The notes: generated from the sequence alone by a model not told the origin. A DNA stretch of 41,888 nucleotides from a virus (IMGVR_UViG_3300045240_000066:1-41888), one strand, 5' to 3'. Positions 2,360 to 41,888 are shown, counted from the first letter of the stretch. A program made the numbers and translations.

Positions 2360-2766
2360 TGGCGTACCGATACGGCGGCCCGCAGCAGCCCGGCTACGGC
2401 GCGCCGCGGCAGGGCTTCCCGCAACGCCCAGGCTATGCCGGCGCACCACAACAAGGCGCGATGCCCGGACGTGACAGCATCACCCAGGCGCTGATGCAGA
2501 TCGCGGCGCCGCCGCCGGTGCCGAACTATCAGACGCCGCCGATGGGTATGGGCGCGATGCCGCCGCCGCAGCCGGCCTCACCGAACGGCCCGCCCACCGG
2601 CCTACCGACTGGAGCGCCGATGGCGCCCGGCGCAGCCAACGCCGCCCCGTCGAGCATAGGCGCACCGCAGATACCGCAGATGCCGATGCCGGGGGCCCCG
2701 ACGCCGGGGATGGGTCAGACGAACCCGCTGCAGCAGCCGCAGCAGAACCCGCTCAATCAGTACTGA
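2359..2766 (+). CDS. Pro/Gln/Gly-rich low-complexity protein
   Basis: This 135-residue protein is dominated by Pro, Gln, Gly, Ala and Met and has no recognisable domain. The ATG at 2359 is chosen over the in-frame GTG at 2356 because it overlaps the previous TGA and follows a strong caggagg at 2345-2351. Composition and position suggest a disordered virion or assembly protein. With the protein spanning the contig ends it is one of two Pro-rich proteins flanking the 2OG oxygenase, and so is a candidate substrate. It could simply be a disordered linker or scaffold component. Confidence 0.75.
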   Translation: MAYRYGGPQQPGYGAPRQGFPQRPGYAGAPQQGAMPGRDSITQALMQIAAPPPVPNYQTPPMGMGAMPPPQPASPNGPPTGLPTGAPMAPGAANAAPSSIGAPQIPQMPMPGAPTPGMGQTNPLQQPQQNPLNQY

Positions 2767-2779
2767 TAAGGGGGCTTCC

Positions 2780-4183
2780 ATGGGTGGCATCTTCGACGCT
2801 CCGCAGCCGCCGAACCCGATTACCACAGCGGCGGCGCAGACCGGCAGCAACGTCTCGACCGCGGTCGCCAACGCCAACCTCAACAACGTCAATCAGGTCA
2901 CGCCGCAGGGCAATCTGACCTACGACCAGACTTCGACGTTCCAATGGACCGACCCGACCACCGGCTCGACTTATTCAATCCCGCGCTACACGGCGACGCA
3001 GACGCTGCCGCAGATCGGCCAGGATACGCTCGACCAAGCCAATCAGGCGAAGTTCAATCTAGCTTCGATCGGCAACATGTCGTCGGCGCAGCTTCAGCAG
3101 CTCCTCGGCTCCGGCATCAACCTCTCCAACATTCCGCCCGGCGGCGACGCCAGCTATGGGCTGGGAAACATCGGACAGGCGTCAGGCACGATCGACTACA
3201 ACGGCCCCGGCCCGCAGATGACGTTCGGCGATGCCGGCGCGATCACGCGCGACTACGGTGACGACGCGGGCGTCTTGCAGGACCGCGCCAACGTCGAGAA
3301 CTCGCTGTTTCAGCGGTTCCAGCCGCAGAACGATCGTGATCTCGCTAATCTGCAGTCACACCTCAACGACCAGGGCATCAAGTACGGCAGTCCTGCGTAT
3401 CAAGCCGCCATGGACAACTACAACCGCGGCATCACCGACCAGCGCCTCGGCATCACGGCGCAAGGCGGCGCCGAGCAGAAGCTCCAGAACGACATGCTGG
3501 CGCAGCGCGCCGGCTTCCAGAACGCCGCGCAGCAGCAGCAATTCACGGAGAACCAGCAGAAAGGCACCTTCTTCAACAACGCGCAGACCAATGCATTCCA
3601 ACAGGGCGCGACGCGCACGCAGGCGCTCAACGCCGCGCTGGCGCAGCAGCAGTCGCTGCAGGAAACCCGGTTTAATGCCGAGCAGGCGCAGCGCTCGCAG
3701 GCGCTGGCCGAGCAGTATGCATTGCGCGACCAGCCGCTCAACGAGATCAGCGCGCTGCTCTCTGGCTCCGCAGTGGGGCAGCCGAACTTCGTCAGTTCCA
3801 CCGCCAACAAGATCCCGACCACCGATGTCGCCGGAATTATCAACAGCAACTTCAGCCAGAGCCTGGACAGTTATAAACAGCAGTCGACGCAGTACAACAA
3901 CCTGATCGGCGGCCTGTTCGGCGCCATCGCCGGGCTCAAGTCTGACGCGCGCAGCAAGGAGAATATCCACAAGGTCGGCAGCGTGTTCGCGTCGACGCCG
4001 CAGAAGGTGGCCGAGCTACCGATCTATCAGTACAGCTACAAGGATGATCCGGCTTCGACTGCGCATGTCGGCCCGATGGCGCAAGACGTCGAGAAGATCG
4101 ACCCGGCCGCGGTCAAGGAGCGCGCCGGCACCAAGTATATCAACCCCGCCCGCGTCATGGGCTCAATCCTGAAGGCAGCGTGA
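2780..4183 (+). CDS. Virion protein with C-terminal S74 chaperone (tail fibre/core)
   Basis: The 467-residue product is Asn/Gln/Ala-rich over residues 1-380, with a probable coiled coil around 200-320. It ends in a peptidase S74-type intramolecular chaperone domain (about 385-467). The KSDARSKENI stretch contains the expected Ser388 and Lys393 at the autocleavage site, followed by PIYQYSYKDD and HVGPMAQDVEKIDPAAV, typical of this domain. S74 domains trimerise beta-rich fibres and then cut themselves off. The ATG at 2780 follows an aaggggg Shine-Dalgarno. The N-terminal part is not a standard tail fibre, so the protein may be a core or tail-tip component. Confidence 0.85.
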   Translation: MGGIFDAPQPPNPITTAAAQTGSNVSTAVANANLNNVNQVTPQGNLTYDQTSTFQWTDPTTGSTYSIPRYTATQTLPQIGQDTLDQANQAKFNLASIGNMSSAQLQQLLGSGINLSNIPPGGDASYGLGNIGQASGTIDYNGPGPQMTFGDAGAITRDYGDDAGVLQDRANVENSLFQRFQPQNDRDLANLQSHLNDQGIKYGSPAYQAAMDNYNRGITDQRLGITAQGGAEQKLQNDMLAQRAGFQNAAQQQQFTENQQKGTFFNNAQTNAFQQGATRTQALNAALAQQQSLQETRFNAEQAQRSQALAEQYALRDQPLNEISALLSGSAVGQPNFVSSTANKIPTTDVAGIINSNFSQSLDSYKQQSTQYNNLIGGLFGAIAGLKSDARSKENIHKVGSVFASTPQKVAELPIYQYSYKDDPASTAHVGPMAQDVEKIDPAAVKERAGTKYINPARVMGSILKAA

Positions 4184-5916
4184 TGGCCGCAATCCAACCG
4201 CTTGCTCGCCTCGGACAGGGCGCGCCGGCCCCCGACGATCCGGGCGATCCCGCGAGCCCGAGCTATCAAACTCTGCTGCTGCGCAAGCAGATAGCCGAGA
4301 TGCTGGCCAAGCGCGGCGACGCCGGCCAGGGCGGCAACCTCTCGATCGGCGGCGGCATCCGCGAGCTCGGCTATGCGTTCGGCGACCAGCAGCGGCAGGC
4401 CGCACTGCTCCAGCAGGCGCAGCGGCAGGCCACGCTCGAGGACCAGCGCATCAACGCCGTGCCGACGCAGCCGCAGGGCACGATCCCGCCGATCCAGATG
4501 CAGCCTGGGGCGCCGCTGCCGGATGTAGCGACACCGCCGGCACCGGCGCCTGCGACGCCGGCACCAGCGCCGCAGGCGCAGGCCTCGCCGCTGTTCATGC
4601 AGTCGGCTAACGCGCACCCGTCCTACGACGTGAGCGACGACAGCTCGACGCAGCCTTCGCCGGAGACGCTGATGGCGCGCGACCAGATCACGCTCGCGGA
4701 GATGGCCCGCCGACAAGCCGCCGAACCCGCCGGAGGCGGGGCGCCGCTCCCTTTCAGCCCCGGCCCATCTACCCAATCGGAGGCGCCTACTAACGCCCCG
4801 GTCATGGCCGCCGGTGATGACGGTGACGCTGGCACGCCGCCGATCATCCTGGCCGGCTTCAGGGACACCCCGCCGCGGCCGTCGCAGCAGCCGATTGCGC
4901 CCGCGCCGGCCCCGCGGGATGTGGGGCTCGAGCCGATCCAGCCGAGCCCGGTGCCGCTGTTCCCCGAGCAGCTCAAGCTGATGCAGATCATGCAGAGCGG
5001 CAGCTACTCACCGGAGGCGCGCGCGGCGGCGGCCGAGAAGTTCAAGATCTGGGAGAAGTACCGCACCGATCAGCAAGAGCTGCAGCAGCAGCAATTCAAG
5101 TATTTGCGCAGCCAGCGCGACGATGCACTGGAGAAGAACCGCGGCGAGCCGATCGAATACCAGACCAAGCAGCTCGGCATCGAGAAGGCGCAGGCCGATC
5201 TTGCGGACCAATACTACAAGCAGGGCCTGCCGCGGCAACAAGCCGAGACGAAAGCCGCGCTCGATATTCAGGAATTGCAGAACAAGCTCGCCGGGCCGGC
5301 TGACGTGCGCGACCTCAATGGCGCGATCTACACCCGCCGGCAGGGCGAGCAGGGCTACGCCCGCGCCCCAGGCTCGCCAGCGCCCGTGCTCACGGCGCAG
5401 CAGCAGGACGCCGTCAACTTCGCGACCAGCGTGCGCCCAGACCTCGAAGACCTCAAGAACAGCCTCGACAACGGCAAGGCGCTGACCGATCCGAAACAGG
5501 CCGCCTACTCGCATCTGCCGTTCGGGCTCGGCCGGGCTACGACCTCGCCGGAGTTCCATGCGTCCATGGACAAGCTCGGCAATTTCGCCGCCGCCTTCCT
5601 CAAGATGCGCAGCGGCTCGGCAGTGTCACCAAGCGAAGCGATGCGGACGCTACCCTCGATCATGCCGCAGGTCGGCGACACCGACGCCGACCTCGCCGCC
5701 AAGGCGCGCCGCCGCGACCTACTGGTTGACAGCGCGACCGGCGCGGCCGGTCCTGAAGCTAAACGCATCGCCGACGAGGTCGTGGCCGAATACAATCGCA
5801 ACCGGCCGCCGCCCACCGGCGCGATCCACGTCAACACGCCGGATGAAGCGCGACGGCTTCCCCCGGGTACGCCGATCATCCTCCCCGATGGCCGCCACGG
5901 TATGGTGCCACGGTGA
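4183..5916 (+). CDS. Large Pro/Ala- and Gln-rich probable virion protein
   Basis: This 577-residue protein has no family I recognise. Residues about 100-260 are Pro/Ala-rich and disordered. Residues about 275-385 are Gln/Lys/Glu-rich and likely form a long helical or coiled-coil segment (EKFKIWEKYRTDQQELQQQQF). The C-terminal 180 residues look globular. The ATG at 4183 overlaps the S74 gene stop (TGATG), and its own TGA overlaps the GTG of the next gene. Size, composition and position between fibre-type genes fit an internal or ejection protein, by inference from podovirus gene order. Confidence 0.75.
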   Translation: MAAIQPLARLGQGAPAPDDPGDPASPSYQTLLLRKQIAEMLAKRGDAGQGGNLSIGGGIRELGYAFGDQQRQAALLQQAQRQATLEDQRINAVPTQPQGTIPPIQMQPGAPLPDVATPPAPAPATPAPAPQAQASPLFMQSANAHPSYDVSDDSSTQPSPETLMARDQITLAEMARRQAAEPAGGGAPLPFSPGPSTQSEAPTNAPVMAAGDDGDAGTPPIILAGFRDTPPRPSQQPIAPAPAPRDVGLEPIQPSPVPLFPEQLKLMQIMQSGSYSPEARAAAAEKFKIWEKYRTDQQELQQQQFKYLRSQRDDALEKNRGEPIEYQTKQLGIEKAQADLADQYYKQGLPRQQAETKAALDIQELQNKLAGPADVRDLNGAIYTRRQGEQGYARAPGSPAPVLTAQQQDAVNFATSVRPDLEDLKNSLDNGKALTDPKQAAYSHLPFGLGRATTSPEFHASMDKLGNFAAAFLKMRSGSAVSPSEAMRTLPSIMPQVGDTDADLAAKARRRDLLVDSATGAAGPEAKRIADEVVAEYNRNRPPPTGAIHVNTPDEARRLPPGTPIILPDGRHGMVPR

Positions 5917-7499
5917 GCGAGCGCGACGCCTGGGATGAGTTCGTAGTACCGGCCGCCGACCCATGGGCCGGCTTCAACCCGGTCGTGAAGCCGGCGCCGC
6001 TGCCAGACCTGCCGCTGTCGCAGCGTATCGTTGGCGGCCTGGACGATGCCGCACGGGCGGCGTCCAATGCCGCCACCTTCGGCATGGCCGACCGCGTCGC
6101 CGGTGGCATGGACGCGCTGACCGGGCGCGCGCCGAGCTACAGCGCCGGTACCGACGCCCAGGTGCGGCAGTCGCAGGCGGCGCGCGAGCGCAGCCCCTGG
6201 CTCTCGGCCGCGGGCGATGTGACCGGCATCGTCGGCAGCTCGATCGCCGCCGGCCCGGCCCGCGTCGCCCCCGCGATCGCGGATGCATTGGGCGGCGGGG
6301 CGCTTGCCCGCGCGCTGGGCTATGGCCTCGGCGGCGCCGCCACGGGTGCGGCGCAGGGCGCCGGCAACACCTACACCGGAAACCCTGCGGACTACGCCCG
6401 CAACGCCACCATGGGCGGCGTGCTCGGCCTCGCTTCCGGCGCTGGAACCGGCGCCGCCTTCGCACCGCGGCCGCGCGTCTCCGGCGCCAAGACGCCAAGC
6501 TATGGCGAGCTCGGGGCCGAGGCAGATGCCAAGTATGCGGCCGTGCGCGCCAACCCGACCGCCTACAGCGCCAACGCCGTCGCCAACATGGCGGGCGACG
6601 CCGAGCGGCATCTCTACGATGAAGGTTACGGGCCGCGATACAGCGGGCAGACCTGGGACACCTTCAACATGCTGCACGGGTACCCGCCCGGTGCGGTGGT
6701 CACACCGGCGAACCTTGATTACGCCCGCAAGCAGCTTAACCGCATTCCCTTCAGCGATATTTCGGCGACTGACCGATCGAGCGGCCGTATCCTCAAGGAC
6801 CGCATCGACGACTTCATCGCCAACCCGCCGCCCGGCGCGGTGTTGCCGAGCTCGCCGCCGGGCGCCGCCGCGGAGGCCAGCCGGCAATTACAGGCGGCGC
6901 GCGGCAACTACGCGGCCAGCAAACGCGGCGAGGTCATGGACGACATCAAGGTAGCGGCGCAGGACGCCGCGGCCTCCGCTAATTCCGGTTTGAACGTCGA
7001 GAACGTGATCCGGCAGAAGGTGAAGAACCTGATTAATCCGCTATCTGCCGGCTACGAAGGCAAGATGGCCGGCTTCACGCCCGCCGAAGAAGACATGCTG
7101 CGGCAAAGCATTGTGCGCCGCGGCCCGACCGCCAACATCGCGCGCGCAGTCGGCAACATGATGGGCGGCGGCGGCGGCATCGGCGCGCCGCTGGTGGGAC
7201 TGGCGGCCGGGGCCGGTGCCGGCGGCACCATCGGCCACTATTTCGCTGATGATCCCTCGACCGGCGCGGCGGCCGGCTTCGCTGTGCCGGCGATCGGCAT
7301 GGGAATACGCATGGCCTCCAATCGTTCGGCGGCCAATGCCATCGCGCGCGCCACTGATACGATCCTGCAGCGCTCACCGCTCTACATGGAACGCGCAGCG
7401 ACGGCGCCAATGGTGCCGGGACCGAGTATGCTATCGGCAACTAACACCGGGCGCGTGCGTGACGCCCTGGCGCTCGAGATGCTGCGCCAGCAGCAATGA
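5913..7499 (+). CDS. Large Gly/Ala-rich probable internal/ejection protein
   Basis: The 528-residue protein starts at a GTG overlapping the previous stop (GTGA). It contains two Gly/Ala-rich amphipathic or weakly hydrophobic stretches, about residues 100-190 (GYGLGGAATGAAQGAG) and about 410-470 (GGGGGIGAPLVGLAAGAGAG). Between them is a polar helical region. Such sections are common in podovirus internal virion proteins, which enter or cross the host envelope during DNA ejection. No lysozyme or transglycosylase motif is visible. The role is inferred from composition and position, not homology. Confidence 0.75.
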   Translation: MSERDAWDEFVVPAADPWAGFNPVVKPAPLPDLPLSQRIVGGLDDAARAASNAATFGMADRVAGGMDALTGRAPSYSAGTDAQVRQSQAARERSPWLSAAGDVTGIVGSSIAAGPARVAPAIADALGGGALARALGYGLGGAATGAAQGAGNTYTGNPADYARNATMGGVLGLASGAGTGAAFAPRPRVSGAKTPSYGELGAEADAKYAAVRANPTAYSANAVANMAGDAERHLYDEGYGPRYSGQTWDTFNMLHGYPPGAVVTPANLDYARKQLNRIPFSDISATDRSSGRILKDRIDDFIANPPPGAVLPSSPPGAAAEASRQLQAARGNYAASKRGEVMDDIKVAAQDAAASANSGLNVENVIRQKVKNLINPLSAGYEGKMAGFTPAEEDMLRQSIVRRGPTANIARAVGNMMGGGGGIGAPLVGLAAGAGAGGTIGHYFADDPSTGAAAGFAVPAIGMGIRMASNRSAANAIARATDTILQRSPLYMERAATAPMVPGPSMLSATNTGRVRDALALEMLRQQQ

Positions 7500-7508
7500 G
7501 GAGGCGAC

Positions 7509-8798
7509 ATGCCGCGCGATGGTTCCGGCGTTTATACGATCCCGAGCGGCACGCATGGAGTGCCCAACACTACCATCTCGTCAACCGCCTATAACGCCTA
7601 CGTCGACGATGTCGCGACTGACCTCAACGCCAAGCGGCCGATCGTGGCCGGCGGCACCGGCGCCAGCAACGCGCCGGATGCTCGCGCGCTGCTCGGCACT
7701 GATACCGCAGGGCAACTGGTCGCGGACTACAATGCCTTCGTGTTCTCGCCCGGCAGCTTCTACTCGGCGGTGGCGGCGACCAATTCCCCGGTCGCCGGGC
7801 ATGCCTTCTCCGGCATCTGCTATTCCGGCGACCCCCTGCCGGTCCCGCCGGCCGCGCCGGCAAACCTCAACCTCGTCATCGAGGCGCGCGACCAGAGCGA
7901 CACGGTGGTGCCGGGCACGCTGTATATCCGCGAGCGTAAGGCCGGCGTCTGGGGCGCCTGGACCAATCCGGCCGCCGTCGCGATCGCCGCCGCCATCAAC
8001 ACCTTCACGCCGCCACCGTGCGGGCGGCTGGCCTGGGTCAGCGCCACATCACTGAGCTACAAGCCGCAGCTCGGCAATATGCTGCGGATCAACGGCCAGA
8101 ACTACGTCATCCCCAGTGCCGGCATCGCCGGCCTCAGTAATACCGGCGTATTCGTCAACGGCACCGGCGGCGCTAACCTTGTGGCGAGCACCGATTACTG
8201 GGTCTATGCCTTCGTCAATTCCGGCGCGGTCACGGCCGACTTCCGCACGGCTTCGACGCATGCGCCGAGCGCAACGCCCGGCAACGAAGGCGTCGAGATC
8301 CTCACCGGCAACGACACCCGCACGCTGATCGGGCTGGTTCACACCAATTCAGGCGGCCAGTTCGCCGACAGCGTGACGCAGCGCTTCGTACTGAGCTGGT
8401 TCAACCGCAAGCGCCGGCACATGCTCAACACCTTCACGGTGTCACGCACCACCACGTCAGCGGCGCAGATCGAGGTCAATACCGAAATCCGCTGCGAGTT
8501 CATGCTGTGGAACGACGACACGCCCTACTTCTCGGTCAACGCCATGACGTTCCCCGGCGCCGCGGCGGGTAACCAGACGTTCACCACGATCGGCTTCAAT
8601 ACCGGCTATGAACGCGCCAGCGTCAACAACCAGGGCGAAACCAACTTCCAGCCCGGCATGGGCGGTAGCGTCTCGATCTGGAAGGCGCCGCTCGGCGAAG
8701 GCTACAACTTCGCCACCCTGGTCGGCTGGGTCGCGCCCGGCGGCACCACTGGCACATGGCTGGCAAGCTGCACGCTCACCGGCTCGGTCACCGGGTGA
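7509..8798 (+). CDS. Tail fibre / receptor-binding protein
   Basis: The 429-residue protein opens with MPRDGSGVYTIPSGT and, at residues 22-58, a TTISSTAYNAYVDDVATDLN ... RPIVAGGTGAS pattern, a common N-terminal anchoring module of phage tail fibres. The rest is beta-rich and Asn/Gly/Thr-rich, with WGAWTNPA and GSVSIWKAPLGEGYN segments typical of fibre or spike domains. There is no obvious catalytic site or chaperone domain at the C-terminus. The start is supported by gaggaggcgac just upstream. The lysis-like genes follow directly, the first start overlapping this stop as GTGA. Confidence 0.88.
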   Translation: MPRDGSGVYTIPSGTHGVPNTTISSTAYNAYVDDVATDLNAKRPIVAGGTGASNAPDARALLGTDTAGQLVADYNAFVFSPGSFYSAVAATNSPVAGHAFSGICYSGDPLPVPPAAPANLNLVIEARDQSDTVVPGTLYIRERKAGVWGAWTNPAAVAIAAAINTFTPPPCGRLAWVSATSLSYKPQLGNMLRINGQNYVIPSAGIAGLSNTGVFVNGTGGANLVASTDYWVYAFVNSGAVTADFRTASTHAPSATPGNEGVEILTGNDTRTLIGLVHTNSGGQFADSVTQRFVLSWFNRKRRHMLNTFTVSRTTTSAAQIEVNTEIRCEFMLWNDDTPYFSVNAMTFPGAAAGNQTFTTIGFNTGYERASVNNQGETNFQPGMGGSVSIWKAPLGEGYNFATLVGWVAPGGTTGTWLASCTLTGSVTG

Positions 8799-8968
8799 TC
8801 CTCTCCACACCTAAGGAGACGATCGACGCCCTCAAGGGGACGCCAATCCTGCTCGCGGCGATGATCCTCAACGTGATTGTGCTGGCCGGCTTCGGCTGGA
8901 CCATCCACCAAGTGTCGTCCTCGATCGAGCGTCGCGACGCGCTGATCAAGAGCTGCCTGGAGAAGTAA
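8795..8968 (+). CDS. Small single-pass membrane protein, holin candidate
   Basis: From the GTG at 8795, which overlaps the fibre stop, the product has 57 residues. A short polar N-terminus is followed by one hydrophobic segment (about residues 16-35, TPILLAAMILNVIVLAGFGW) and a charged tail ending IERRDALIKSCLEK. The layout fits a small phage holin or a spanin-like helper, and two more lysis-type genes follow immediately. A farther upstream ATG (8756) would read through the fibre gene end. No named family is certain. Confidence 0.75.
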   Translation: MILSTPKETIDALKGTPILLAAMILNVIVLAGFGWTIHQVSSSIERRDALIKSCLEK

Positions 8969-8969
8969 G

Positions 8970-9137
8970 ATGTCGACGGTCGGTCTTATCCTGCTTGTCC
9001 TGCTCGTGCTCGCGCTGCTCGGCGGCTTCGGCGGCTGGGGCGGCGGCCCGTTCTACGGCACCGGATATTACGGCGGCGGCGTGCTCGGCGTGCTGCTGGT
9101 GATCCTGATCGTGCTGGTCGTGCTCGGCAAGATCTGA
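8970..9137 (+). CDS. DUF3309-like two-helix membrane protein
   Basis: This 55-residue reading frame has ATG at 8970, one base after the previous TAA, and TGA at 9135-9137. It begins MSTVGLILLVLLVLALLGGF, continues with a Gly/Trp/Tyr-rich turn (GGWGGGPFYGTGYYGGG), and has a second hydrophobic helix (VLGVLLVILIVLVVLGKI). This hydrophobic-Gly/Tyr-hydrophobic layout matches DUF3309, a small membrane family common in Alphaproteobacteria. In this position it may serve as a holin or pinholin with its neighbour. The stop overlaps the next ATG (TGATG). Confidence 0.8.
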   Translation: MSTVGLILLVLLVLALLGGFGGWGGGPFYGTGYYGGGVLGVLLVILIVLVVLGKI

Positions 9138-9712
9138 TGGTCACCATCTGCATTTCGGCCGGCGAGCGCGGCCACGCCGTCAACGCCGCATGGTGCCGCG
9201 CGCTGCGCGCCGCGCTCATCAGCCGGGGCCTGCGCGCCCATATGCTGGGGACGCCGTCAGGCCACGAGAACGCGCACACGCAGTCCCTGATCGACTGGCA
9301 CAACAGCATGGCCCGCGATCTTGATGTCTGCATCAGGCCCGAGCGCCTGCGTGAGGAAGGCGCCGAGAACACCGGCGTCCAAGTATTCTTCGCCGATGGC
9401 GAGCGTGAACTCGCAACCGAAGTGGCAGCAGCAATCGCGCAGCGCGGCGGCGTGGCCGACTGCGGCGCGCACCTGAGCGCGGGCCCGTTCCTCGTCGGTA
9501 CACATCAGCACGCTCTCCTCATCGCCCTGGCGCAGCCGCCGCACGACGCCGCCTGGGGGGCGGTCGCCGACGCCCTGGTGCTCGCGCTGCCGCTGCCGGC
9601 GGCGCCCCCGGTGATTGCCTTGCGGCCCCATGTTAAGGTCGAGCTGACACTGCCGAATGACGTCGAGCTGCGGCTGTTCATAAATGGTGAAGAACTACTG
9701 CTGCCGGATTGA
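9137..9712 (+). CDS. Degenerate amidase_3 paralogue (probably inactive)
   Basis: The 191-residue protein aligns by eye with the N-terminal amidase domain of this phage's endolysin (23241-24248). Shared blocks are DxxxxxHN...RDLDVxI (about 53-66), GVxV (80-83), ELAxxVxxAIAxxG (91-104), FLxGT (118-122) and AxLI (126-129). The zinc and catalytic positions are lost: the endolysin's GHG becomes GER (9-11), SIH becomes CIR (R67), and LIEVCF becomes LIALAQ (A130). Hydrolase activity is therefore unlikely. It lies after two small membrane proteins, where an endolysin is often found. It may bind cell wall, regulate the lysin or be a relic. The last 40 residues are unrelated. Confidence 0.8.
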   Translation: MVTICISAGERGHAVNAAWCRALRAALISRGLRAHMLGTPSGHENAHTQSLIDWHNSMARDLDVCIRPERLREEGAENTGVQVFFADGERELATEVAAAIAQRGGVADCGAHLSAGPFLVGTHQHALLIALAQPPHDAAWGAVADALVLALPLPAAPPVIALRPHVKVELTLPNDVELRLFINGEELLLPD

Positions 9713-9770
9713 CGGCGCCGGCCAAATCAGTGCAACACCGCGTGAGTAAGCGTTGCGTCCTGAGTTCCAG

Positions 9771-9796
9771 CGCCCGCCGGGCCCCCTCGGCGGGCG
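9771..9796. terminator. Putative bidirectional terminator hairpin
   Basis: A perfect 9-bp stem (CGCCCGCCG at 9771-9779, CGGCGGGCG at 9788-9796) with an 8-base loop lies between the end of the rightward late genes (9712) and the end of the leftward block (9875). There is no clear T-run, so intrinsic termination is uncertain. A second weaker GC-rich inverted repeat follows at about 9811-9842. The gap 9713-9874 holds nothing else I can identify. Confidence 0.5.
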
Positions 9797-9874
9797 TCCT
9801 GCTGCTTGGACCCGAGGCGGGGAGGATTGGGACAACCCGCCCCGGGCCCGCAGCGCACCGCCCAGGCACCACGG

Positions 9875-10090
9875 CTAGGCGGGACGGTTGCGCACTATGG
9901 ATAACCGCTTCGGCTGGCCGGCGGCTATGAAGGACAGCAGCAGCTCGGCGCGCGTCACCAGTCGGGACAGCTCGCGCGTATGCGCCGCCACGACCGGGTA
10001 CGTCGCAGGTTCGAGCGCCATGATGATCAGGCGATCGAGCACCTGCAGGGTGGTGTCGGCGGCCTGCTTGACCGTCTCATCGGGTGACAT
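9875..10090 (-). CDS. Small helical protein of unknown function
   Basis: The start is taken at the ATG at 10090 (MSPDETVKQAADTTL), preceded on its strand by gaggag at a 5-base spacing; the product has 71 residues. An in-frame start at 10114 would add eight residues with weaker support. The protein looks all-helical, with Asp/Thr/Leu heptads and no recognised family. It is transcribed divergently from the HTH gene at 10188 across a 97-base gap carrying repeat and palindrome elements, so it may share their control. Confidence 0.6.
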   Translation of the reverse strand: MSPDETVKQAADTTLQVLDRLIIMALEPATYPVVAAHTRELSRLVTRAELLLSFIAAGQPKRLSIVRNRPA

Positions 10091-10119
10091 GGTGGGCTCC
10101 TCTTCCGCCGCCACCTTAT

Positions 10120-10141
10120 CTCAAGTATTGTGAAGGACAAT
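10120..10141. promoter_or_regulatory. Overlapping palindromes, possible operator
   Basis: ATTGT-gaagg-ACAAT (10127-10141) is a 5-bp inverted repeat. The overlapping CTCAAGTATTGTGAA (10120-10134) resembles, at about 10 of 15 positions, the TTCACAT-A-ATGTGAA palindrome at 22517-22531. The site sits between two divergent genes, one encoding an HTH protein, which suggests an operator or promoter region. No clear -35/-10 pair was assigned. Confidence 0.4.
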
Positions 10142-34299: not shown

Positions 34300-35243
34300 C
34301 CAACAAGCACGAGCACGACAAGGACAAGCACGAGCGCGAGCAGGCGGAGCAGCGCCGCCAGAGCCAGAGCCAGCAGCAGCAACAGCGCGAGCGTGAGCAG
34401 CGCGAGATGGCCGAGCAGCGCCAGCGGCAGGCGGAAGGCGGTGAGCATGCCGAGCAGCGCCAGCGCGAGCAGGACGAGCAGCGCCGACGGGCGCAGCAGG
34501 GCTCGGACCAGTACCCGCGACATGGGCAGGACGAGCAGCGCCAGCAGCACGAGCGCGAGCAGAAGGAGGCGAGCGAGCAGGAAGCGCAGCGCGACACAGC
34601 CAAGCACCAGCGCGAGCAGGAGGAGAAGCGCCAGCGCCCGCAGCAGGGCCGCGGCGACCACGCCCAGCAGCAGCCTGATGATCGGCTGCAGCGGCAGCAG
34701 GAGGACGAGCGCCGCCGCGTCGAGGAGGTGCGTCACCAGCTCGACGAGCAGCACAAGCGCAACGAGCTGGCGCAGAAGGCGGCCGACGAGCGCATCGACC
34801 GGGACCAGCTCGATAACATGGTGAAGGCCGGCTACGAGCACATGGACCAGCCCGGCCTCGATCCGCGCAACCGCCCGAGCGACATGCTCGACCTCAAGGA
34901 GGGCGAGCGCGCGCCGCACAAGTCGATCCGCGATCTTGAGGATATTACCGGCAATCCCGGCCACCGCGGCGTGACGCCGTACGCGCCGGCGACCTCGATG
35001 AACCCGGCGCCCGGCCTGTACGATATGCCGCAGTCCATCAACGAGCCGCCCACGATCGCCGACGAGAACTTGCCGGAAGGCGCTCGCGGCGCGCAGCAAC
35101 CACCATGGCAGCTGCCGGAGGACGCCCGCAGCCGCGACGGCGCGCCTGGGCGTGGTCCTGGCCGCGGCCCGCAGGGCAGTCAGTACCCGGCCGACAACAA
35201 GACGTGGGGCAACGATGCCGACCCCAGAGCACCGCGACGGTGA
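34296..35243 (+). CDS. Gln/Arg/Glu-rich coiled-coil protein
   Basis: From the ATG at 34296 (ATGA overlap) the product has 315 residues. Residues 1-170 are almost entirely Glu, Gln, Arg and Lys, a long charged single helix or coiled coil. Residues 180-315 are Pro-rich, with a short conserved-looking DRDQLDNMVKAGYEHMDQPG segment. The C-terminus contains another SINEP motif like the IPT gene before it. It may be a scaffold or head-associated protein; the family is not recognised. Confidence 0.72.
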   Translation: MTNKHEHDKDKHEREQAEQRRQSQSQQQQQREREQREMAEQRQRQAEGGEHAEQRQREQDEQRRRAQQGSDQYPRHGQDEQRQQHEREQKEASEQEAQRDTAKHQREQEEKRQRPQQGRGDHAQQQPDDRLQRQQEDERRRVEEVRHQLDEQHKRNELAQKAADERIDRDQLDNMVKAGYEHMDQPGLDPRNRPSDMLDLKEGERAPHKSIRDLEDITGNPGHRGVTPYAPATSMNPAPGLYDMPQSINEPPTIADENLPEGARGAQQPPWQLPEDARSRDGAPGRGPGRGPQGSQYPADNKTWGNDADPRAPRR

Positions 35244-35571
35244 GCTGATCGAGATTGCACCGGGTCGCTGGCGGTTCGCGCGGCCGAGCCTACCGCCAGC
35301 GCGCTCGGACTTGCCCAGTCCGATGATCATTCGCGACGAGATGCCGCCGACCGAGCAGGTGGATGGTCGCTTCTACACCAGCAAGGCCAAGTTCCGCGCG
35401 GTTGGCCGTGCCCTTGGGCTGATCGAGGTCGGCAACGAGAAGCCGCGTCAGAAGGTGCGCGCGACCGCGTCAGCTGCTAACAAGCGGGCGAGACGCTTGG
35501 CATTCCAGCGTGCCGCTGCGCAGCACCGCGCCGGTCGCCGCCCGCGTCAGGGAGGACAATCCAATGGCTGA
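35215..35571 (+). CDS. Conserved small late protein (upstream of scaffold)
   Basis: From the ATG at 35215 the protein has 118 residues. The segment DGELIEIAPGRWRFARPSLPP and then PMIIRDEMPPTEQVDGRFYTSK, AVGRALGLIEVGNE recurs in rhizobial and other phage genomes just before scaffold genes, with no known function. It is basic and helical at the C-terminus. The first 29 bases lie inside the previous gene in another frame. Role in head assembly is inferred from position. Confidence 0.7.
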   Translation: MPTPEHRDGELIEIAPGRWRFARPSLPPARSDLPSPMIIRDEMPPTEQVDGRFYTSKAKFRAVGRALGLIEVGNEKPRQKVRATASAANKRARRLAFQRAAAQHRAGRRPRQGGQSNG

Positions 35572-36853
35572 TGCACCCGCTCCGGCGCCAGCACCGGCGC
35601 CGGCACCCGCACCCGCATCCGCACCCGCGCCAGCAGCGCCACCGCGCGAGGTGGTGATCGACCAGAATCCGGTCAATACGCCGGCCCCGGTCGGCGCGCA
35701 GGCGCCGCCGCGTCCACCGGAGAAGCCGTCAGACCGGGCGTCGAGCCGGCGCGAGAGTATCGCCAACGCCTTCAAGAAGTCGCGCGAGGGTGTCGAGATC
35801 CCGGCTGCCAAGCCGCGCATTGGGCATAATCAGCCGCCCGAGGCGATCGACGCCGAGAAGGCTGCGGCGCCGCCGCGGCAGCAAACCTCCACGATTGACT
35901 TGCGCAGACCGCCGCTGCGTGGCCGCGGCGGCCGGTTCGCGCCGCAGGCGCCGCAGCCCGGTCAGCAGAGCGGCCAGCAGCCCGGTCAGCAGCGGGCGCC
36001 GCAGCAGTATGCCGAGCTGCCGCACAATGCGCCGTACCGTCAGGTGCCGTCGCGGATGAAGCCGGAGGCGCAGCGGGCGTGGCACGCCACGCCCGACCAT
36101 GTGCGCGGTGAGGTTCACCGCATGCTGAAGGAGTTTCACGGCTTCTACCAGAAGGCCAAGTCCGACATCGACGTGATGCAGAGCATCCGGCCCTACCATG
36201 AGCTGGCCAAATCGCAGGGTACCAGCCTGGAGCGGGCGCTCTCGAACTACGTCACGATGGAGAACAAGCTGCGGGAAGATCCCATCGCGGGATTGGACGT
36301 GCTGATCCACAATATGAACCTTCGCACCAGCGATGGTTATCAACTCACGCTGCCGGATGTCGCGCGCTACGTGCTCTCGCGCACGCCCGAGCAGCACGCG
36401 CTGACGCAGTCCGGTAACGTCCAGGGCGCGCACAATGCCCAGATCGCGCAACTGAACCAGCAAGTGCAGCAGTTGACCAACGCGCTGCACCATATGCATA
36501 ATCAGCAGCAATTCGCGCAACGCTACACCCAGACGCGGCACGGCGTTGATCGGTTCGCCGAGACGCACCCTCGAACGGATGAGCTGGCGCCCGCCATCAC
36601 GCAGGAGCTGCGTGCCGGCTATTCGCTCGAGCAGGCGTATCAGCGTGCGACGCTGCTGCACCCGCACCCCGCGGCTCAAACCCGCGGGCCCTCCCCGCAG
36701 CCGGCTCAAACCCGGGCGGCCGATCGGTCTATCTCCGGCGCACCAGCCGGCGCACCCGTGAGCGGGCGCGCGGCTCGTCGTCCGGGCGTGCCGCCACCAA
36801 GCCGCCGCGACATCATCGCCAACGCCGTTCGGCGCGTGAATGGGTCGCTGTAG
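35564..36853 (+). CDS. Scaffolding-type protein
   Basis: The start at 35564 follows a strong agggagg. The 429-residue protein begins with an Ala-Pro repeat tract (residues 4-24), continues with a Pro/Gln-rich disordered region, and has a helical central domain (about 160-320: PEAQRAWHATPDHVRGEVHR, ALSNYVTMENKLREDPIAGL). The C-terminal part is Gln/His-rich and coiled. It lies immediately before the major capsid gene, where scaffold or protease-scaffold proteins sit. No protease motif is seen. Confidence 0.8.
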   Translation: MADAPAPAPAPAPAPAPASAPAPAAPPREVVIDQNPVNTPAPVGAQAPPRPPEKPSDRASSRRESIANAFKKSREGVEIPAAKPRIGHNQPPEAIDAEKAAAPPRQQTSTIDLRRPPLRGRGGRFAPQAPQPGQQSGQQPGQQRAPQQYAELPHNAPYRQVPSRMKPEAQRAWHATPDHVRGEVHRMLKEFHGFYQKAKSDIDVMQSIRPYHELAKSQGTSLERALSNYVTMENKLREDPIAGLDVLIHNMNLRTSDGYQLTLPDVARYVLSRTPEQHALTQSGNVQGAHNAQIAQLNQQVQQLTNALHHMHNQQQFAQRYTQTRHGVDRFAETHPRTDELAPAITQELRAGYSLEQAYQRATLLHPHPAAQTRGPSPQPAQTRAADRSISGAPAGAPVSGRAARRPGVPPPSRRDIIANAVRRVNGSL

Positions 36854-36874
36854 TTCATTCTGGGGAGCCCCACG

Positions 36875-37897
36875 ATGCTGAATATCACGAGTAATGCCTC
36901 CTACCAGCAGATCCTGTCGATGACGCTGGAAGACCGTTCATCCGACTACATGGACCTTGTCAGCAACAATAATGCCTTGCTTGCAGTGATGCGCCGCAAG
37001 GGGCTGTGGCAGACCTATCACGGCCCGCTCATTCGCCAGACGCTGCAAATCGGCAAGCAGAACGCGCAATGGTACTCGGGCTATGATCAGCTCCTGAACC
37101 CGGCGATCGACCTGTTCAACGATGCGCTGTACTCGCCGAAGATGGTTGTCGTGCCGATTGTTCTCTCCATGCAGGAGATCCTCGGCAACGAAGGCGAGGG
37201 CCAGCTGATCGACGTTTACGACGCCTACATCGACGCCGCCGAGCGTGCGCTCGAGGATACGATGGACGCCGGCATCTACAGTGACGGCACCGCCAATGGT
37301 GGCAAGCAGATCACTGGTCTTGCGACAGCAGTGCCGATCGTCAACAACTCTGGTGTTTATGGCGGCATCGACCGCGGCACCGCGGTGATCTGGCGCACGC
37401 AGACCTTCGACGCGCAGACCATGAACACCGCGATCGGGACGCAGGTCAACAGCACCACGATCCGGCCGTTCCTCAACGCCATCATGACGCGGCAGTCGCG
37501 CGGGCGTGACTACGCCGACCTGCTGCTGATGTCGCCAGAGCACTACGCCGCCTATGACGCGGCCACGGTCGCGATCCAGCGCCAGACCAACGACACCAAC
37601 CTCGGCAAGCTTGGCTTCTCGGCGCTGGAATATATCGGCGGCGGCAAACGCGCCGAGATCGTGATGGACGGCGGCATTGGAAGTAATATGCCGGCCAACA
37701 CCACGTTCGGCCTCAACACTGATAGTTTCCGGGTGCGCTACCACCCCAACCGCAACTTCGACAAATTGTTCGACGGCGACGGCCAGATGCCGATCGACAA
37801 GGACGCAGTCGCGCAATTTATCGGCTGGATGGGCGAGCTCACGCAAGTCAACCCGCTGTTCAATTGGCGGTTCTACGACAGCAATCCGGCGGCTTAA
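36875..37897 (+). CDS. Major capsid protein
   Basis: The 340-residue protein begins MLNITSNASYQQILSMTLED and includes LMRRKGLWQTYHGP-like and RQTLQIGKQNAQWYSGYDQL segments, LSMQEILGNEGEGQLIDVYD, and a C-terminal ATTFGLNTDSFRVRYHPNRN stretch. This resembles podovirus HK97-fold capsid proteins that follow a scaffold gene. There is no evident prodomain, so maturation may not involve a protease. RBS ggggagccccacg precedes the ATG. The gene ends before a hairpin region. Confidence 0.9.
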   Translation: MLNITSNASYQQILSMTLEDRSSDYMDLVSNNNALLAVMRRKGLWQTYHGPLIRQTLQIGKQNAQWYSGYDQLLNPAIDLFNDALYSPKMVVVPIVLSMQEILGNEGEGQLIDVYDAYIDAAERALEDTMDAGIYSDGTANGGKQITGLATAVPIVNNSGVYGGIDRGTAVIWRTQTFDAQTMNTAIGTQVNSTTIRPFLNAIMTRQSRGRDYADLLLMSPEHYAAYDAATVAIQRQTNDTNLGKLGFSALEYIGGGKRAEIVMDGGIGSNMPANTTFGLNTDSFRVRYHPNRNFDKLFDGDGQMPIDKDAVAQFIGWMGELTQVNPLFNWRFYDSNPAA

Positions 37898-38005
37898 AGC
37901 ACTGCCCTCCTGGCGCGACCACCGCTAGGAAGCCCGCCGCTTGGTCAAGCTCGGGGAGAGCCGCCGCTAGGCGGCGGGCACAACACGTAATTAACGGAGC
38001 TATCC
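37898..38005 (+). terminator. Hairpin region after capsid gene
   Basis: GCCCGCCGC (37932-37940) can pair with GCGGCGGGC (37971-37979), and a smaller alternative GCCGCC-gcta-GGCGGC (37960-37975) competes with it. The two structures are mutually exclusive. There is no T-run. The site may be a partial terminator or mRNA-stabilising element that sets high capsid expression. Confidence 0.5.
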
Positions 38006-38734
38006 ATGCCGCTGCAGAACCCAGACGACGTGCTGATTGTGTTGTTCAAGAACAGCACCAAGCCTAACGAGGCCAAGAGCGTGGCCGCCGGGCGCCCGAT
38101 CGAGGACGACATCGAGATCTGCGAGATCCGCTTCCCTGGCTCGCGTTCCGTGAGTGTATTCCCGGCGCATGAACTGTGTCCGTACAAGCTGAATGATCCG
38201 TATACCGGCCGGCAGCGCGGCATCACCTACGCCGAGCGGTTCCAGTCCCAATACCGCCAGTTCAAGATGCATCACGACCAGACCCGCACTGGGACGCCGC
38301 TCGACTACGTGCCGTTCCTGACTGAGGCGAAGCGCCTCGAGCTGCGTAGTTTGAATATCTACACGGTTGAGGCGCTCGCCCATATCGACGGGCAGGAGCT
38401 CAAGAACCTCGGGCCCGGCGGCCGTGAACTGAAGAACGAGGCGGAAGATTATATCGCCCGCGCCCAGGCCGGCGCCGTGCCGATGCAGATGGAGGCTGAA
38501 TTGTCGGCGCTGCGCGCGCGCAATCAGATGCTCGAAGATGACATGGCGGCGCTCAAGGCCCAGCCGCAACCCGGCACCGAAGGCGAGGCCGACTTCGCCA
38601 ACATGAGCGCGGTGCAATTGCGCAACTACATCACCGCCAAGACCGGCCATCCGCCACACGGCAGTCTCTCGGTGAAGGTGCTGCAGCGTATGGCGATGGA
38701 CGCCGCGCAAGTCGGAGCCGAAGCCGCCGCGTGA
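38006..38734 (+). CDS. Conserved phage protein with helical C-terminal domains
   Basis: The 242-residue protein (MPLQNPDDVLIVLFKNSTKP...) has an N-terminal beta-rich region with PGSRSVSVFPAHELCPYKLN, a helical middle (TEAKRLELRSLNIYTVEALA, RELKNEAEDYIARAQ) resembling a helix-hairpin-helix/SAM-type fold, a coiled-coil segment (160-190), and a C-terminal SAP-like block (SAVQLRNYITAKTGHPPHGS). The position between capsid and adaptor suggests head completion or DNA-contacting function. No named family is sure. Confidence 0.72.
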   Translation: MPLQNPDDVLIVLFKNSTKPNEAKSVAAGRPIEDDIEICEIRFPGSRSVSVFPAHELCPYKLNDPYTGRQRGITYAERFQSQYRQFKMHHDQTRTGTPLDYVPFLTEAKRLELRSLNIYTVEALAHIDGQELKNLGPGGRELKNEAEDYIARAQAGAVPMQMEAELSALRARNQMLEDDMAALKAQPQPGTEGEADFANMSAVQLRNYITAKTGHPPHGSLSVKVLQRMAMDAAQVGAEAAA

Positions 38735-38744
38735 GGTTAAGTTC

Positions 38745-39458
38745 ATGTCGCTGTTGAGCGTGGTGCAGGACGTCTGCGAGGTGGTCGGCGTCGAGCGCCT
38801 CCCCACCATATTCGGCGACGTGGTCAATCAGCGCACGCAGCAGGAGATGCTGGCGCTCGCTAATGAAATGGCGCAGCGCATCGCCTACGACAGCCGCGAC
38901 TGGGTCGAGCTGATCACGACCACCACATTGCATGGCGACGGCGTCACTCCGAGCTTCCCGCTGCCGGCTGATTATCAGCGCCTGCTGGTCGACGGCAATG
39001 TGTGGAGCTCATACTCGGCGTTGATCCCGCTGCGCTTCATTGGCAGCTACGACGAGTGGCTGCGCCGCGCCGCCAACAACTACTGGGACAATCGCGGGCA
39101 GTACATTCTGATCGGCGGCAACATCATGATCCAGCCGCCGCTCGCGGCCGGCGCCACGGCTACCTTCGCCTATGTCCGCAAGCCTATCATCAATCTGGCG
39201 GGCGGCGGCGTCGGCGTGACGTTCACGTCGGATGCGGATACGTTCATATTAGATGAGCGCACGCTCAAGCTCGGCATGATCTGGCAGTGGAAGGCGAATA
39301 AGGGTTCACCATACGCCGAGGACATGGGCACGTTCTCGGATGCGCTGGCAATGAAGATGGGATCGAACCAGCCGGCGCCGGTGCTGATCAATAGCTACCC
39401 GATGTCGACCAGCATCAACGCTAGCATCGCCTATCCCTGGCCGCTGCCCAGCCCATGA
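38745..39458 (+). CDS. Head-tail adaptor / tail tubular protein A-like
   Basis: The 237-residue protein (MSLLSVVQDVCEVVGVERLP, NEMAQRIAYDSRDWVELITT, FPLPADYQRLLVDGNVWSSY) has the helical start and beta-rich C-terminus of podovirus head-to-tail adaptors (T7 gp11-like, P22 gp4-like). These sit below the portal and receive the nozzle. The following gene is a nozzle-like protein, as in this group of phages. The ATG at 38745 follows gtgaggttaa. Its stop overlaps the next ATG. Confidence 0.88.
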   Translation: MSLLSVVQDVCEVVGVERLPTIFGDVVNQRTQQEMLALANEMAQRIAYDSRDWVELITTTTLHGDGVTPSFPLPADYQRLLVDGNVWSSYSALIPLRFIGSYDEWLRRAANNYWDNRGQYILIGGNIMIQPPLAAGATATFAYVRKPIINLAGGGVGVTFTSDADTFILDERTLKLGMIWQWKANKGSPYAEDMGTFSDALAMKMGSNQPAPVLINSYPMSTSINASIAYPWPLPSP

Positions 39459-41158
39459 GCACATACGCAGCATTCCGCCGCCAGTCAGTCCCGCAGCAAT
39501 ACGCCCAGAACCTGCAGACGGTGACGCTGCCGGCGCCGACGCGCGGCATCATCCAGAGCGAGAACGACGCCTACATGCAGCCGGGCGGCGCGGTCGTGCA
39601 GGACAATTGGGTGAGCACGCTGCGCGGCGTGAAGCTGCGCGGCGGCACCGTCCTGTACTGCGATCTTCATGCCGGCGGCGGCGAAGGCTGGGACACCGGC
39701 AAGTGGGACATCGCGCAGTGGGATGTCGATCCAGTGGCGCCGGTGGCGGTGGTGCGCGAGCCGGTCGTGAGCATGTTCAGCTACGTCAATGGCGACAACA
39801 TGCATCGCATGTTCGCCGGCCAGCGCACCAAATTGTTCGACGTGACGCTGCCGCTTGCTGTTCCAGTTAAGTCGGGACAAACCAGCGGCAACTACGCCGC
39901 CACGCAATTGGCCAATCTGTCGGGCGAGCATCTGATCGTGGTCAACGATGCCGGCGACCCGGTCTTACACTTCGACGGCGCCATCTGGGAAACCTTCGAC
40001 GCCGACCAGCTCACCGCGCCGGCCGGGAGCGGCCCCGAGCACGGCCGCGGCCTGACCTACGTCTGGGCGTATCGCGGGCGGCTGTTCTTCATCGAAGGCG
40101 GCACCATGAATGCCTGGTTTCTTAACGTCGACGAGTACCAAGGCGCGCTGCAGATGATCCCGCTCGGCGGTTCTGCAGCGAAGGGCGGCGCGCTGCTGTT
40201 CGGCGCGACTTGGAGCGTCGACACCGGCGACGGTGTCGACGACAAGTGCGTATTTTGCACCACGCAAGGCGAATTGATCATCTTCTCCGGCGGCAATCCA
40301 GGCGACCCCGCCGACTGGGCGCAGCAGGGCCGTTACGCGATCGGCCGGCCGATGGGCATGAACGGTCACATGTTGATCGGCGGCGACCTGCTGATCATGA
40401 CGGTCGACGGCATCGTGCCGACCTCGCAGGCGATCGCCAAGGACAGCGGCACGCTCGATCTCGCGATGGTCACCAATACCATCCGGCCGATGTGGCGCAG
40501 TGAAGTTTCGCTCAAGAGCGACCTGCCCTGGACCATGATCCGGTGGGACAGCTTCGGCGGCATCTTCGTGACGTGGCCGGGCGGGCTCCCAGGCGCGCAG
40601 TACTGCGCGGTGATGAACAACGCCACCACGGCGTGGAGCCGCCTCCCGGGCTACGACGCCCGCGCCTTCGCGCTGATGTACGATGATCTGTACTATGGCA
40701 GCAGTGACGGTCGCATCATCCAGTGCGAGCGCGGCGGGACCGATCTTGGCGCGCCTTACGTGGCGACGCTGGTCGGCGGCTGGGAGATGTTCCAGGCGCC
40801 ATCATCCGAAACGGTCTGGCATCAGGCGAGGGCAGTGTTCGCAGCGCGCTCCGGCCAGCCGTTCGTGCCGCAGCTCAATGCGACGGTCGACTACCTCGTG
40901 ACGATACCCCCGCCGCCCCCGGCCGGGCCCGATCCAGGCGTACAGGACGTTTGGGACCAGGGCCTCTGGGATGTGGCGCGCTGGGACCAGCCGGCCGCGG
41001 CACGGCCGCCAATTCGCAATACGATGTGGGTGAGTATCGGCAAGACCGGCTTTGCCCACGCGCCCGTGGTGCAGGTTACAGTGGCGCAGCAGGCGCCGCC
41101 GGATGTGGAGCTGCTCGCGCTCTCAGCGACCTACGAGCGGGCCGGCGTCAACGTATGA
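39455..41158 (+). CDS. Tail nozzle / tail tubular protein B-like
   Basis: The 567-residue protein begins LQTVTLPAPTRGIIQSENDA and has repeated beta strands with FSYVNGDNMHRMFAGQRTKL, HLIVVNDAGDPVLHFDG, LTYVWAYRGRLFFIEG, CVFCTTQGELIIFSGGNPGD and IGRPMGMNGHMLIGGDLLIM, a beta-propeller pattern of podovirus nozzle proteins (T7 gp12/P22 gp10-like). It carries two WD motifs, GWDTGKWDIAQWDVD (about 78-92) and VWDQGLWDVARWDQP near residue 505, like that in the 29134 gene. It completes the tail tube and likely anchors fibres. Confidence 0.88.
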   Translation: MSTYAAFRRQSVPQQYAQNLQTVTLPAPTRGIIQSENDAYMQPGGAVVQDNWVSTLRGVKLRGGTVLYCDLHAGGGEGWDTGKWDIAQWDVDPVAPVAVVREPVVSMFSYVNGDNMHRMFAGQRTKLFDVTLPLAVPVKSGQTSGNYAATQLANLSGEHLIVVNDAGDPVLHFDGAIWETFDADQLTAPAGSGPEHGRGLTYVWAYRGRLFFIEGGTMNAWFLNVDEYQGALQMIPLGGSAAKGGALLFGATWSVDTGDGVDDKCVFCTTQGELIIFSGGNPGDPADWAQQGRYAIGRPMGMNGHMLIGGDLLIMTVDGIVPTSQAIAKDSGTLDLAMVTNTIRPMWRSEVSLKSDLPWTMIRWDSFGGIFVTWPGGLPGAQYCAVMNNATTAWSRLPGYDARAFALMYDDLYYGSSDGRIIQCERGGTDLGAPYVATLVGGWEMFQAPSSETVWHQARAVFAARSGQPFVPQLNATVDYLVTIPPPPPAGPDPGVQDVWDQGLWDVARWDQPAAARPPIRNTMWVSIGKTGFAHAPVVQVTVAQQAPPDVELLALSATYERAGVNV

Positions 41159-41166
41159 GGTAGGCC

Positions 41167-41888
41167 ATGTCTGACACGTATGCCTCGACCAGCGGGCGCG
41201 ACGGCATCAGTCGCTTCATGTACGACCGCTGCCGCAGCAATCCCACCCTGCCGGAATGCGGCGAGATGGGGTTCGGCGGCCCCGGCGATAGTACCGGCCC
41301 GGCCCCTGGCGGGCCGCCGGCAGACGGCGGCCTGTTCTCGAGCATCGAGATCGGGCCACTCAACGACCCTGGCTACACGCCCCCCGAGGAGGGGCCGTTC
41401 CACAACATGACCACGCCGCCGCCGCCCGCACCCCCTAACGTGCCGCCGGCCTTCGCGCCGCAGCCACCGCAGGGCCGCGGCTTCCCGGCGCAGCCGCCGC
41501 CTCCTGGGCTCCCGGCGCAGCCGCCGCCTCCCGGCTTCCCGGCGGCAGTGCCGTTCACACCGGGAATGGTCCCTTCGTTCGGGCGCGACCCCAATGCGCC
41601 GCCGGCCGTGCCGTTCGGGCAACGCGGCGTGCCGCTGCCGCCGGTTGACCCGCGCAGCCAAGTGCCGGTCGCGCCGGAACAGCCGTCGCTGATCGACCAA
41701 GAGTTCAATGCGCTGCTGTTCGGAAACCGCGGGACGTTAAACGTACCGCCCAGCTTCATCCCGTTTGGGGCCGCGCGCGGCTTCACGCAGGGCCGCGGCG
41801 ACCTCGTGCAGCCGGCCTTCACCGAGCAGACGAACCAGGGCAAGGGTGACTTCGGCGGTGAGGCGGGGCAGGGTGCCGAGGGTAAGGG
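41167..41888 (+). CDS. Pro-rich low-complexity protein, N-terminal part (continues at base 2)
   Basis: The ATG at 41167 (gaggtaggcc just upstream) opens a frame that runs to the window end and continues in frame at base 2, ending at 850. The N-terminal 60 residues (MSDTYASTSGRDGISRFMYD, CRSNPTLPECGEMGFGGPGD) look globular, with two Cys and several Gly. Residues 75-160 are Pro-rich with repeated QPPPPG(L/F)PA units. A short conserved-looking block (SLIDQEFNALLFGNRG, about 175-190) precedes the Gly/Asp-rich C-terminal half. It is likely a tail or surface protein and may be a substrate of the adjacent 2OG oxygenase. Confidence 0.85.
   Translation, partial: MSDTYASTSGRDGISRFMYDRCRSNPTLPECGEMGFGGPGDSTGPAPGGPPADGGLFSSIEIGPLNDPGYTPPEEGPFHNMTTPPPPAPPNVPPAFAPQPPQGRGFPAQPPPPGLPAQPPPPGFPAAVPFTPGMVPSFGRDPNAPPAVPFGQRGVPLPPVDPRSQVPVAPEQPSLIDQEFNALLFGNRGTLNVPPSFIPFGAARGFTQGRGDLVQPAFTEQTNQGKGDFGGEAGQGAEGK
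41667..41888. repeat. Terminal redundancy, right copy
   Basis: These 222 bases repeat the first 222 of the window with one difference (C at 41761 against T at 95). The right copy gives Pro where the left gives Ser in the protein spanning the contig ends. Confidence 0.97.

Follow-up and report, generated by a model that had tools for sequence, protein, structure and literature searches.

What does a phage modify with a prolyl 4-hydroxylase-like oxygenase that is encoded among its virion genes? The question is raised by a 41,888-base virus contig, IMGVR_UViG_3300045240_000066 (the window, by which we mean the whole stretch of DNA analyzed). In this contig, an oxygenase gene lies between the genes for a Pro/Gly/Asp-rich and a Pro/Gln-rich protein, and genes for a DUF6817 protein and a GNAT-like acyltransferase follow it. 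The first-pass annotation of this DNA proposed that the phage hydroxylates, and perhaps acetylates, its own Pro-rich structural proteins. Here, we focus on which of these genes form a functional unit and which neighbor is the likely substrate.

Organization of the locus

Bases 1–222 of the window are repeated at 41667–41888 with a single mismatch (T at 95, C at 41761). This end overlap indicates a genome of 41,666 bp that is either circular or terminally redundant, and it bears out the earlier placement of the gene interval across the contig ends. The ends do not form an exact repeat, which may explain why the record would escape recognition as circular. Genes for the terminase, portal, capsid, a tail protein, and phrog_5107 lie on the + strand, and from these co-directional structural genes the region appears to be a late operon. 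The gene order is phrog_5107, Gly/Asp/Pro-rich protein, oxygenase, DUF6817, GNAT, Pro/Gln-rich protein, and S74 virion protein (Table 1). The position of the oxygenase between two Pro-rich proteins, with DUF6817 and GNAT coupled to it in that order, is therefore as first annotated. The oxygenase/DUF6817, DUF6817/GNAT, and GNAT/Pro-rich junctions all overlap; the likely GNAT start is the ATG at 1886, which overlaps the DUF6817 stop.

Matches to the capsid or phrog_5107 protein point to cultured relatives, among them Rhizobium phage RHph_I3_18, whose capsid protein is 64% identical, and the more distant Sulfitobacter phage pCB2047-A. The phrog_5107 product is labeled 'amidase' in PHROGs and 'neck protein' or 'tubular tail B' in cultured relatives, and the position of its gene suggests a tail or neck protein.

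Table 1. Genes around the oxygenase, in window coordinates.
Feature	Position	Strand	Basis or remark
phrog_5107 gene	39455..41158	+	directly upstream of the Gly/Asp-rich gene
P/G/D-rich protein, N-terminal part	41167..41888	+	ORF runs through the contig end
P/G/D-rich protein, remainder, with C-terminal Gly/Asp tail	1..850	+	likely substrate
2OG-Fe(II) oxygenase, P4H/PHD-like fold, HxD...H intact	854..1450	+	Pfam, alignment, model
DUF6817, HD-superfamily fold	1440..1889	+	Pfam; overlaps the oxygenase 3' end
GNAT-like N-acyltransferase	1886..2359	+	phrog_4470
Pro/Gln-rich protein, GRDSITQALM motif	2356..2766	+	composition; counterpart in oxygenase-free relatives
Virion structural protein, C-terminal Peptidase_S74 chaperone domain	2780..4183	+	Pfam, phrog_6121

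The oxygenase

The oxygenase is a 198-aa protein that matches Pfam 2OG-FeII_Oxy_3 above the cut-off (E=4e-8). Its HxD...H ligands (H115, D117, H172), complete according to the first-pass annotation, are indeed invariant in 28 relatives, as are R100 and R179; R185 is nearly invariant in the 28 sequences. The AlphaFold model (pLDDT 91) has a DSBH fold. The HxD...H triad, an Arg/Lys for 2OG, and this fold are the features of the 2OG-Fe(II) oxygenase superfamily, and the predicted enzyme should be active. Among solved structures, the HIF prolyl hydroxylase PHD2 and bacterial P4Hs come closest, at 16–19% identity. A comparable score is reached by the natural-product hydroxylase PolD, and thus the P4H-like fold alone is insufficient to fix the substrate.

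PADLOC returned a generic CRISPR-associated '2OG' match only and gave no defence reading. PHROG 274 and RefSeq cyanophage records (for example, NC_026924.1 30497–31685) name this oxygenase family 'DNA endonuclease V'. The name is ill-fitting; the profile and the structure model point to a 2OG-Fe(II) oxygenase.

DUF6817 and its altered metal site

DUF6817 (PF20680) is matched in Pfam with E=6.6e-24 and 84.3 bits against a gathering cut-off of 25.2. The model is all-alpha (pLDDT 96). A profile comparison with the PDB returned HD-domain proteins only (Lmo0812, alarmone hydrolases, RelA; best E 0.004), and the structure search placed small alarmone hydrolases first, together with Rel hydrolase domains, in matches that are weak (E 0.13, TM up to 0.62). 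DUF6817 thus has an HD-superfamily fold in which the HD Asp itself is replaced. H28 aligns with the first HD-domain His and H52 with the His of the HD motif. In all 26 DUF6817 sequences, the Asp of this motif is Ser (H52-S53) and the last Asp is apparently Asn (N116); H20, Y55, G56, and T57 are likewise invariant.

As a result of S53 and N116, the H...HD...D metal ligands of HD phosphohydrolases are incomplete. The motif of mixed-valent diiron HD oxygenases is H...HD...H...H...D (PMC8177086). From the diiron motif of PhnZ, TmpB, and MIOX, H20, H28, and H52 are present, but S53 and N116 again depart from it. With Ser and Asn in place of the two Asps, DUF6817 conforms neither to ordinary HD hydrolases nor to PhnZ-type oxygenases, and a strict PhnY/PhnZ-like diiron mechanism was dropped because the required motif is lacking. 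Since the conservation is strict, the alignment suggests a site that is re-tooled and not dead. DUF6817 was not mentioned in the literature searched.

The oxygenase and DUF6817 form the unit

A viral search with the single oxygenase sequence found four distant loci only, and it was the DUF6817 search that opened the family. In nearly all of the 37 viral loci found via DUF6817, the oxygenase is adjacent or fused. A profile search listed 80 loci, new marine T4-like phages among them. The pair spans ~41-kb podophage-like phages, T4-like marine phages, and 172–324-kb phages, the last of which have up to three tandem oxygenase copies. Oxygenase-DUF6817 fusions, in which a single ORF carries both domains, are found in several phage groups and in bacteria (L032-L040, L045, L051, L074, L079, L080, L133, L139, L171). 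Because the two are adjacent in nearly every viral contig and fused in several lineages, the functional unit is the oxygenase plus DUF6817.

In two jumbo-size phages (L022:4104-6501 and L027:4088-6486), three divergent tandem oxygenase paralogues precede DUF6817; the neighbors of the pair in jumbo phages gave no informative match. More distant bacterial DUF6817 genes occur without an oxygenase, several of them within NRPS clusters. This NRPS context, seen at L076, L078, and L082, is a second and separate one for the domain; one of the NRPSs there has a TauD domain.

The Pro-rich neighbor and GNAT

The downstream protein contains 24% P and 13% Q. A Pro-rich protein with a motif like RDAITQALMNI..PPP is found at the GNAT-S74 junction in 18/18 oxygenase-free relatives examined, and Pro-rich neighbors were for this reason rejected as an oxygenase marker. 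GNAT matches phrog_4470 (E=6.4e-28) and has no Pfam GNAT match. It is a core gene of the structural cassette, carried beside tail and S74 genes by cultured phages that have neither the oxygenase nor the Gly/Asp gene, and it was accordingly rejected as part of the module. As both the Pro-rich protein and GNAT are kept without the oxygenase, proline hydroxylation of the neighbors and coupled acetylation are not favored.

The original proposal therefore stands in part. Modification of a protein is still most likely, given the P4H-like fold and the peptide-export and RiPP-like contexts described below, whereas proline as the target and acetylation within the cassette are not sustained. Co-occurrence of the oxygenase with DUF6817 in other phages was found; Pro-rich genes specific to the oxygenase were not.

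The Gly/Asp tail in phages

The upstream protein is 449 aa long and contains 20% G, 14.5% P, and 9.8% D. Its C-terminal tail reads ...GDVTGDVTG...DDGFGDDAAGDDAAGDDAAGDDDGDGGDGGDGGDDDS, and this Gly/Asp tail, rather than proline, is its most unusual feature. The genomes were scanned in stretches of 36 residues for joint enrichment in Gly and Asp. In the window and in G005, G006, G007, and G642, there is one Gly/Asp-rich ORF only per genome, 0–4 nt upstream of the oxygenase gene, the last ~0.4–1.1 kb of some contigs being outside the scan. Elsewhere in the lineage, the pair has other positions: it may adjoin the portal gene, lie close to the capsid genes, follow the fibre gene, or occupy a different region. 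The Gly/Asp gene does not move with it but keeps its place between phrog_5107 and GNAT.

When the pair is present, a Gly/Asp-rich stretch (poly-Asp in G1329) occurs in all 20 determinable genomes. When the pair is absent, the tail occurs in five of 17 near-complete genomes (G1324 judged by eye), and most other pair-free genomes encode a 156–211-aa protein without the tail at that position. A naive Fisher test of 20/20 versus 5/17 gives p = 3e-6. A perfect correlation between tail and oxygenase was considered and failed in one direction, because five tailed phages lack the oxygenase. On the capsid tree, there are seven oxygenase changes and four tail changes, always concordant, with two supported independent pairs, which is not significant. 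With so few independent changes, the coupling is unprovable from the phage lineage alone. Among 41 non-redundant viral loci, which include the window's lineage, Gly-rich ORFs make up 16/247 within three genes of the pair versus 7/433 further away (p = 0.0014), and the one near the pair is often the gene immediately upstream.

An oxygenase-positive phage (L203:14734-15987) has a run of ~25 Asp in place of the Gly/Asp tail. A short RDxI[TA]xALM-like motif is common to the Gly/Asp-rich and Pro/Gln-rich proteins in many relatives and is possibly a common virion docking motif.

Bacterial loci

A co-directional Gly/Asp segment is found within 1.5 kb in 7/14 bacterial oxygenase+DUF6817 loci versus 0/13 DUF6817-only loci (Fisher p = 0.015 with L079 and L080, which belong to the same cluster, counted once). 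At the other seven pair loci, no Gly/Asp ORF was found within 1.5 kb. Six of the seven positive loci have Gly/Asp scores of 0.69–0.81; no score of at least 0.6 occurs in 680 kb of random sequence of related genomes.

Proteins with Gly/Asp-rich stretches at the bacterial loci are of several kinds. For example, the Rhodanobacteraceae precursor (L079/L080) begins with MRELNI[AS]ELSQVYGG..., a double-glycine-type leader, and has a Gly/Asp-rich C-terminus (e.g. GGDGGGGDGGYYADGGG; GGDGGGGDGGYYADGGGYYGDGGGDSGGGDG-like). Its gene adjoins a C39 peptidase-ABC gene and a fused oxygenase-DUF6817, and HlyD is also found in L079. In Herbaspirillum and Polaromonas, they are giant Big_9/cadherin-domain proteins with Gly/Asp stretches. 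In L083, the Gly/Asp protein sits between the oxygenase and DUF6817 genes. In Dyella (L046), the pair occurs with genes for a radical SAM enzyme and a C39-ABC exporter. The traits of a RiPP module, a leader precursor and an exporter, are thus seen in L079/L080 and partly in L046; none was recognized in the phage.

L074:6896-7147 (-) encodes an 83-aa peptide with an MSELELVGG leader and a core of ASEDGDEDPNGG...PPPPPP. Its gene and that of a fused oxygenase-DUF6817 are divergent, and the peptide is a possible uncharacterized RiPP precursor.

Marine T4-like phages

In marine T4-like phages, one or more oxygenases and DUF6817 lie inside the clamp/clamp-loader/RegA operon, between clamp-loader genes, and no Gly-rich neighbor of the pair was found at these loci. 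A reading of the surrounding genes as baseplate genes was wrong; PHROGs gave clamp and clamp-loader genes. This setting speaks against a structural substrate in every case. Synechococcus phage ACG-2014g instead has two oxygenase copies and DUF6817 beside tail-fibre genes, one of which has a long Gly-rich domain. Taken together, the two contexts indicate that the substrate may differ between phages or may be modified in trans. At L164:7733-9420 and similar marine loci, the insertion between the clamp-loader genes comprises DUF6817 and two oxygenases in tandem, and a gene for a RimK-like protein (S6 glutaminyl transferase) follows downstream.

Proposed function and alternatives

Since the pair recurs beside Gly/Asp-rich proteins both in phages and in bacterial peptide-export clusters, it probably modifies such a protein. 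That the pair is one two-enzyme module modifying Gly/Asp-rich segments, and here most likely the tail of the upstream protein, is a reading for which we consider the chances evenly balanced. The 2OG-Fe(II) oxygenase would hydroxylate a Gly/Asp-rich segment that is probably disordered; the modified residue would most likely be Asp (giving beta-hydroxy-Asp) and less likely Gly or another residue. DUF6817 would then act on or bind the hydroxylated product, or it may instead recruit the substrate. The phage substrate would most likely be the C-terminal tail of the directly upstream protein, which is encoded among virion genes. In bacteria, probable targets of the module are secreted peptides, such as double-glycine-leader precursors encoded next to C39 peptidase-ABC exporters, and large surface proteins. 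The possible benefits of a modified tail include metal binding by hydroxy-Asp and control of aspartimide formation at Asp-Gly bonds. More tentatively, a mobile module common to phages and bacterial RiPP/adhesin loci might hydroxylate Asp or Gly in Gly/Asp repeats, and virions might carry the modified tail.

The enzyme could instead be a prolyl hydroxylase for the Pro-rich neighbors, with GNAT acetylating the same proteins. Its closest solved folds are those of prolyl hydroxylases, both neighbors are Pro-rich, and one subgroup has a small Gly/Pro/Met-rich protein between the oxygenase and DUF6817. But the score of PolD leaves the substrate unfixed by the fold, the Pro-rich protein and GNAT are retained in oxygenase-free relatives, and the bacterial neighbors are Gly/Asp-rich and mostly not Pro-rich; we therefore regard this explanation as improbable. 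It is somewhat easier to imagine, though still unlikely, that the position in the structural operon is incidental and that the pair modifies proteins of replication or expression, whether of the host or of the phage, or modulates metabolites, for instance 2-oxoglutarate. The clamp/clamp-loader/RegA location in marine T4-like phages would fit, as would the proposal that cyanophage oxygenases affect 2OG levels and nitrogen signaling (PMC3037559). Such a role leaves unexplained why DUF6817 is an almost constant partner, why the pair occurs in RiPP/C39 and adhesin contexts, and why a Gly/Asp neighbor recurs.

The remaining two alternatives appear very unlikely. In one, DUF6817 is an alarmone or nucleotide hydrolase, similar to small alarmone hydrolases, that counters the stringent response and has nothing to do with the oxygenase substrate. 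Small alarmone hydrolases and Rel hydrolase domains are its top structural matches, but they match weakly, the HS and Asn are in all 26 sequences, and the fusion to the oxygenase and the NRPS/RiPP contexts are ill-fitting. The other, which we judge the least probable of all, is a DNA-modifying (TET/JBP-like) oxygenase. 2OG DNA hydroxylases are encoded by phages, and the T4-like context is a replication operon. However, both fold and sequence comparisons lead to hydroxylases of the P4H type that act on proteins and amino acids, and the bacterial contexts include peptide export.

If the pair does modify the Gly/Asp tail, virion maturation would here include hydroxylation of a structural protein by an enzyme, which would be unusual for a phage. 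For DUF6817, unstudied so far, the comparison supplies a partner and a fold, shows that the active site is altered, and names a class of substrates that can be tested.

Comparison with known systems

PhnY/PhnZ and TmpA/TmpB are two-step pairs of a 2OG hydroxylase and an HD-domain mixed-valent diiron oxygenase (PMC8177086). The present pair resembles them in that a 2OG-Fe(II) hydroxylase is paired with a small HD-fold protein. It differs in that DUF6817 has Ser and Asn for the motif Asps, its fold similarity to PhnZ/TmpB is weak (TM 0.34–0.40) and below that to alarmone hydrolases, and the contexts of the pair are those of proteins and peptides, not phosphonates. With PHD2/EGLN1 and bacterial P4Hs (the Pseudomonas putida P4H was solved with EF-Tu), the oxygenase shares the DSBH fold, the HxD...H iron site, and a likely protein substrate. 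In contrast to these enzymes, to which it is 16–19% identical, the phage oxygenase has no Pro target that tracks with it and has DUF6817 as a constant partner.

In nitrilobacillin, a ribosomal peptide, PesHI hydroxylates Asp stereoselectively at the beta position (PMC13060819); that enzyme belongs to another family, acts without DUF6817, and is not in phages. Mimivirus is reported to encode enzymes that modify its own low-complexity, collagen-like proteins; there the virus is a eukaryotic giant virus, the target is collagen Lys, and the partner enzymes are unrelated. The module would work in a way somewhat akin to 2OG/HD pairs and to RiPP tailoring enzymes, but in the phage no leader or exporter was recognized. 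The comparison connects structural genes of phages to peptide-export clusters of bacteria. Finally, the cyanophage '2OG-Fe(II) oxygenase / DNA endonuclease V' genes (PHROG 274) belong to the same oxygenase family; the sources found name no substrate for them, and the comparison offers a functional lead for this gene family, now labeled 'DNA endonuclease V'.
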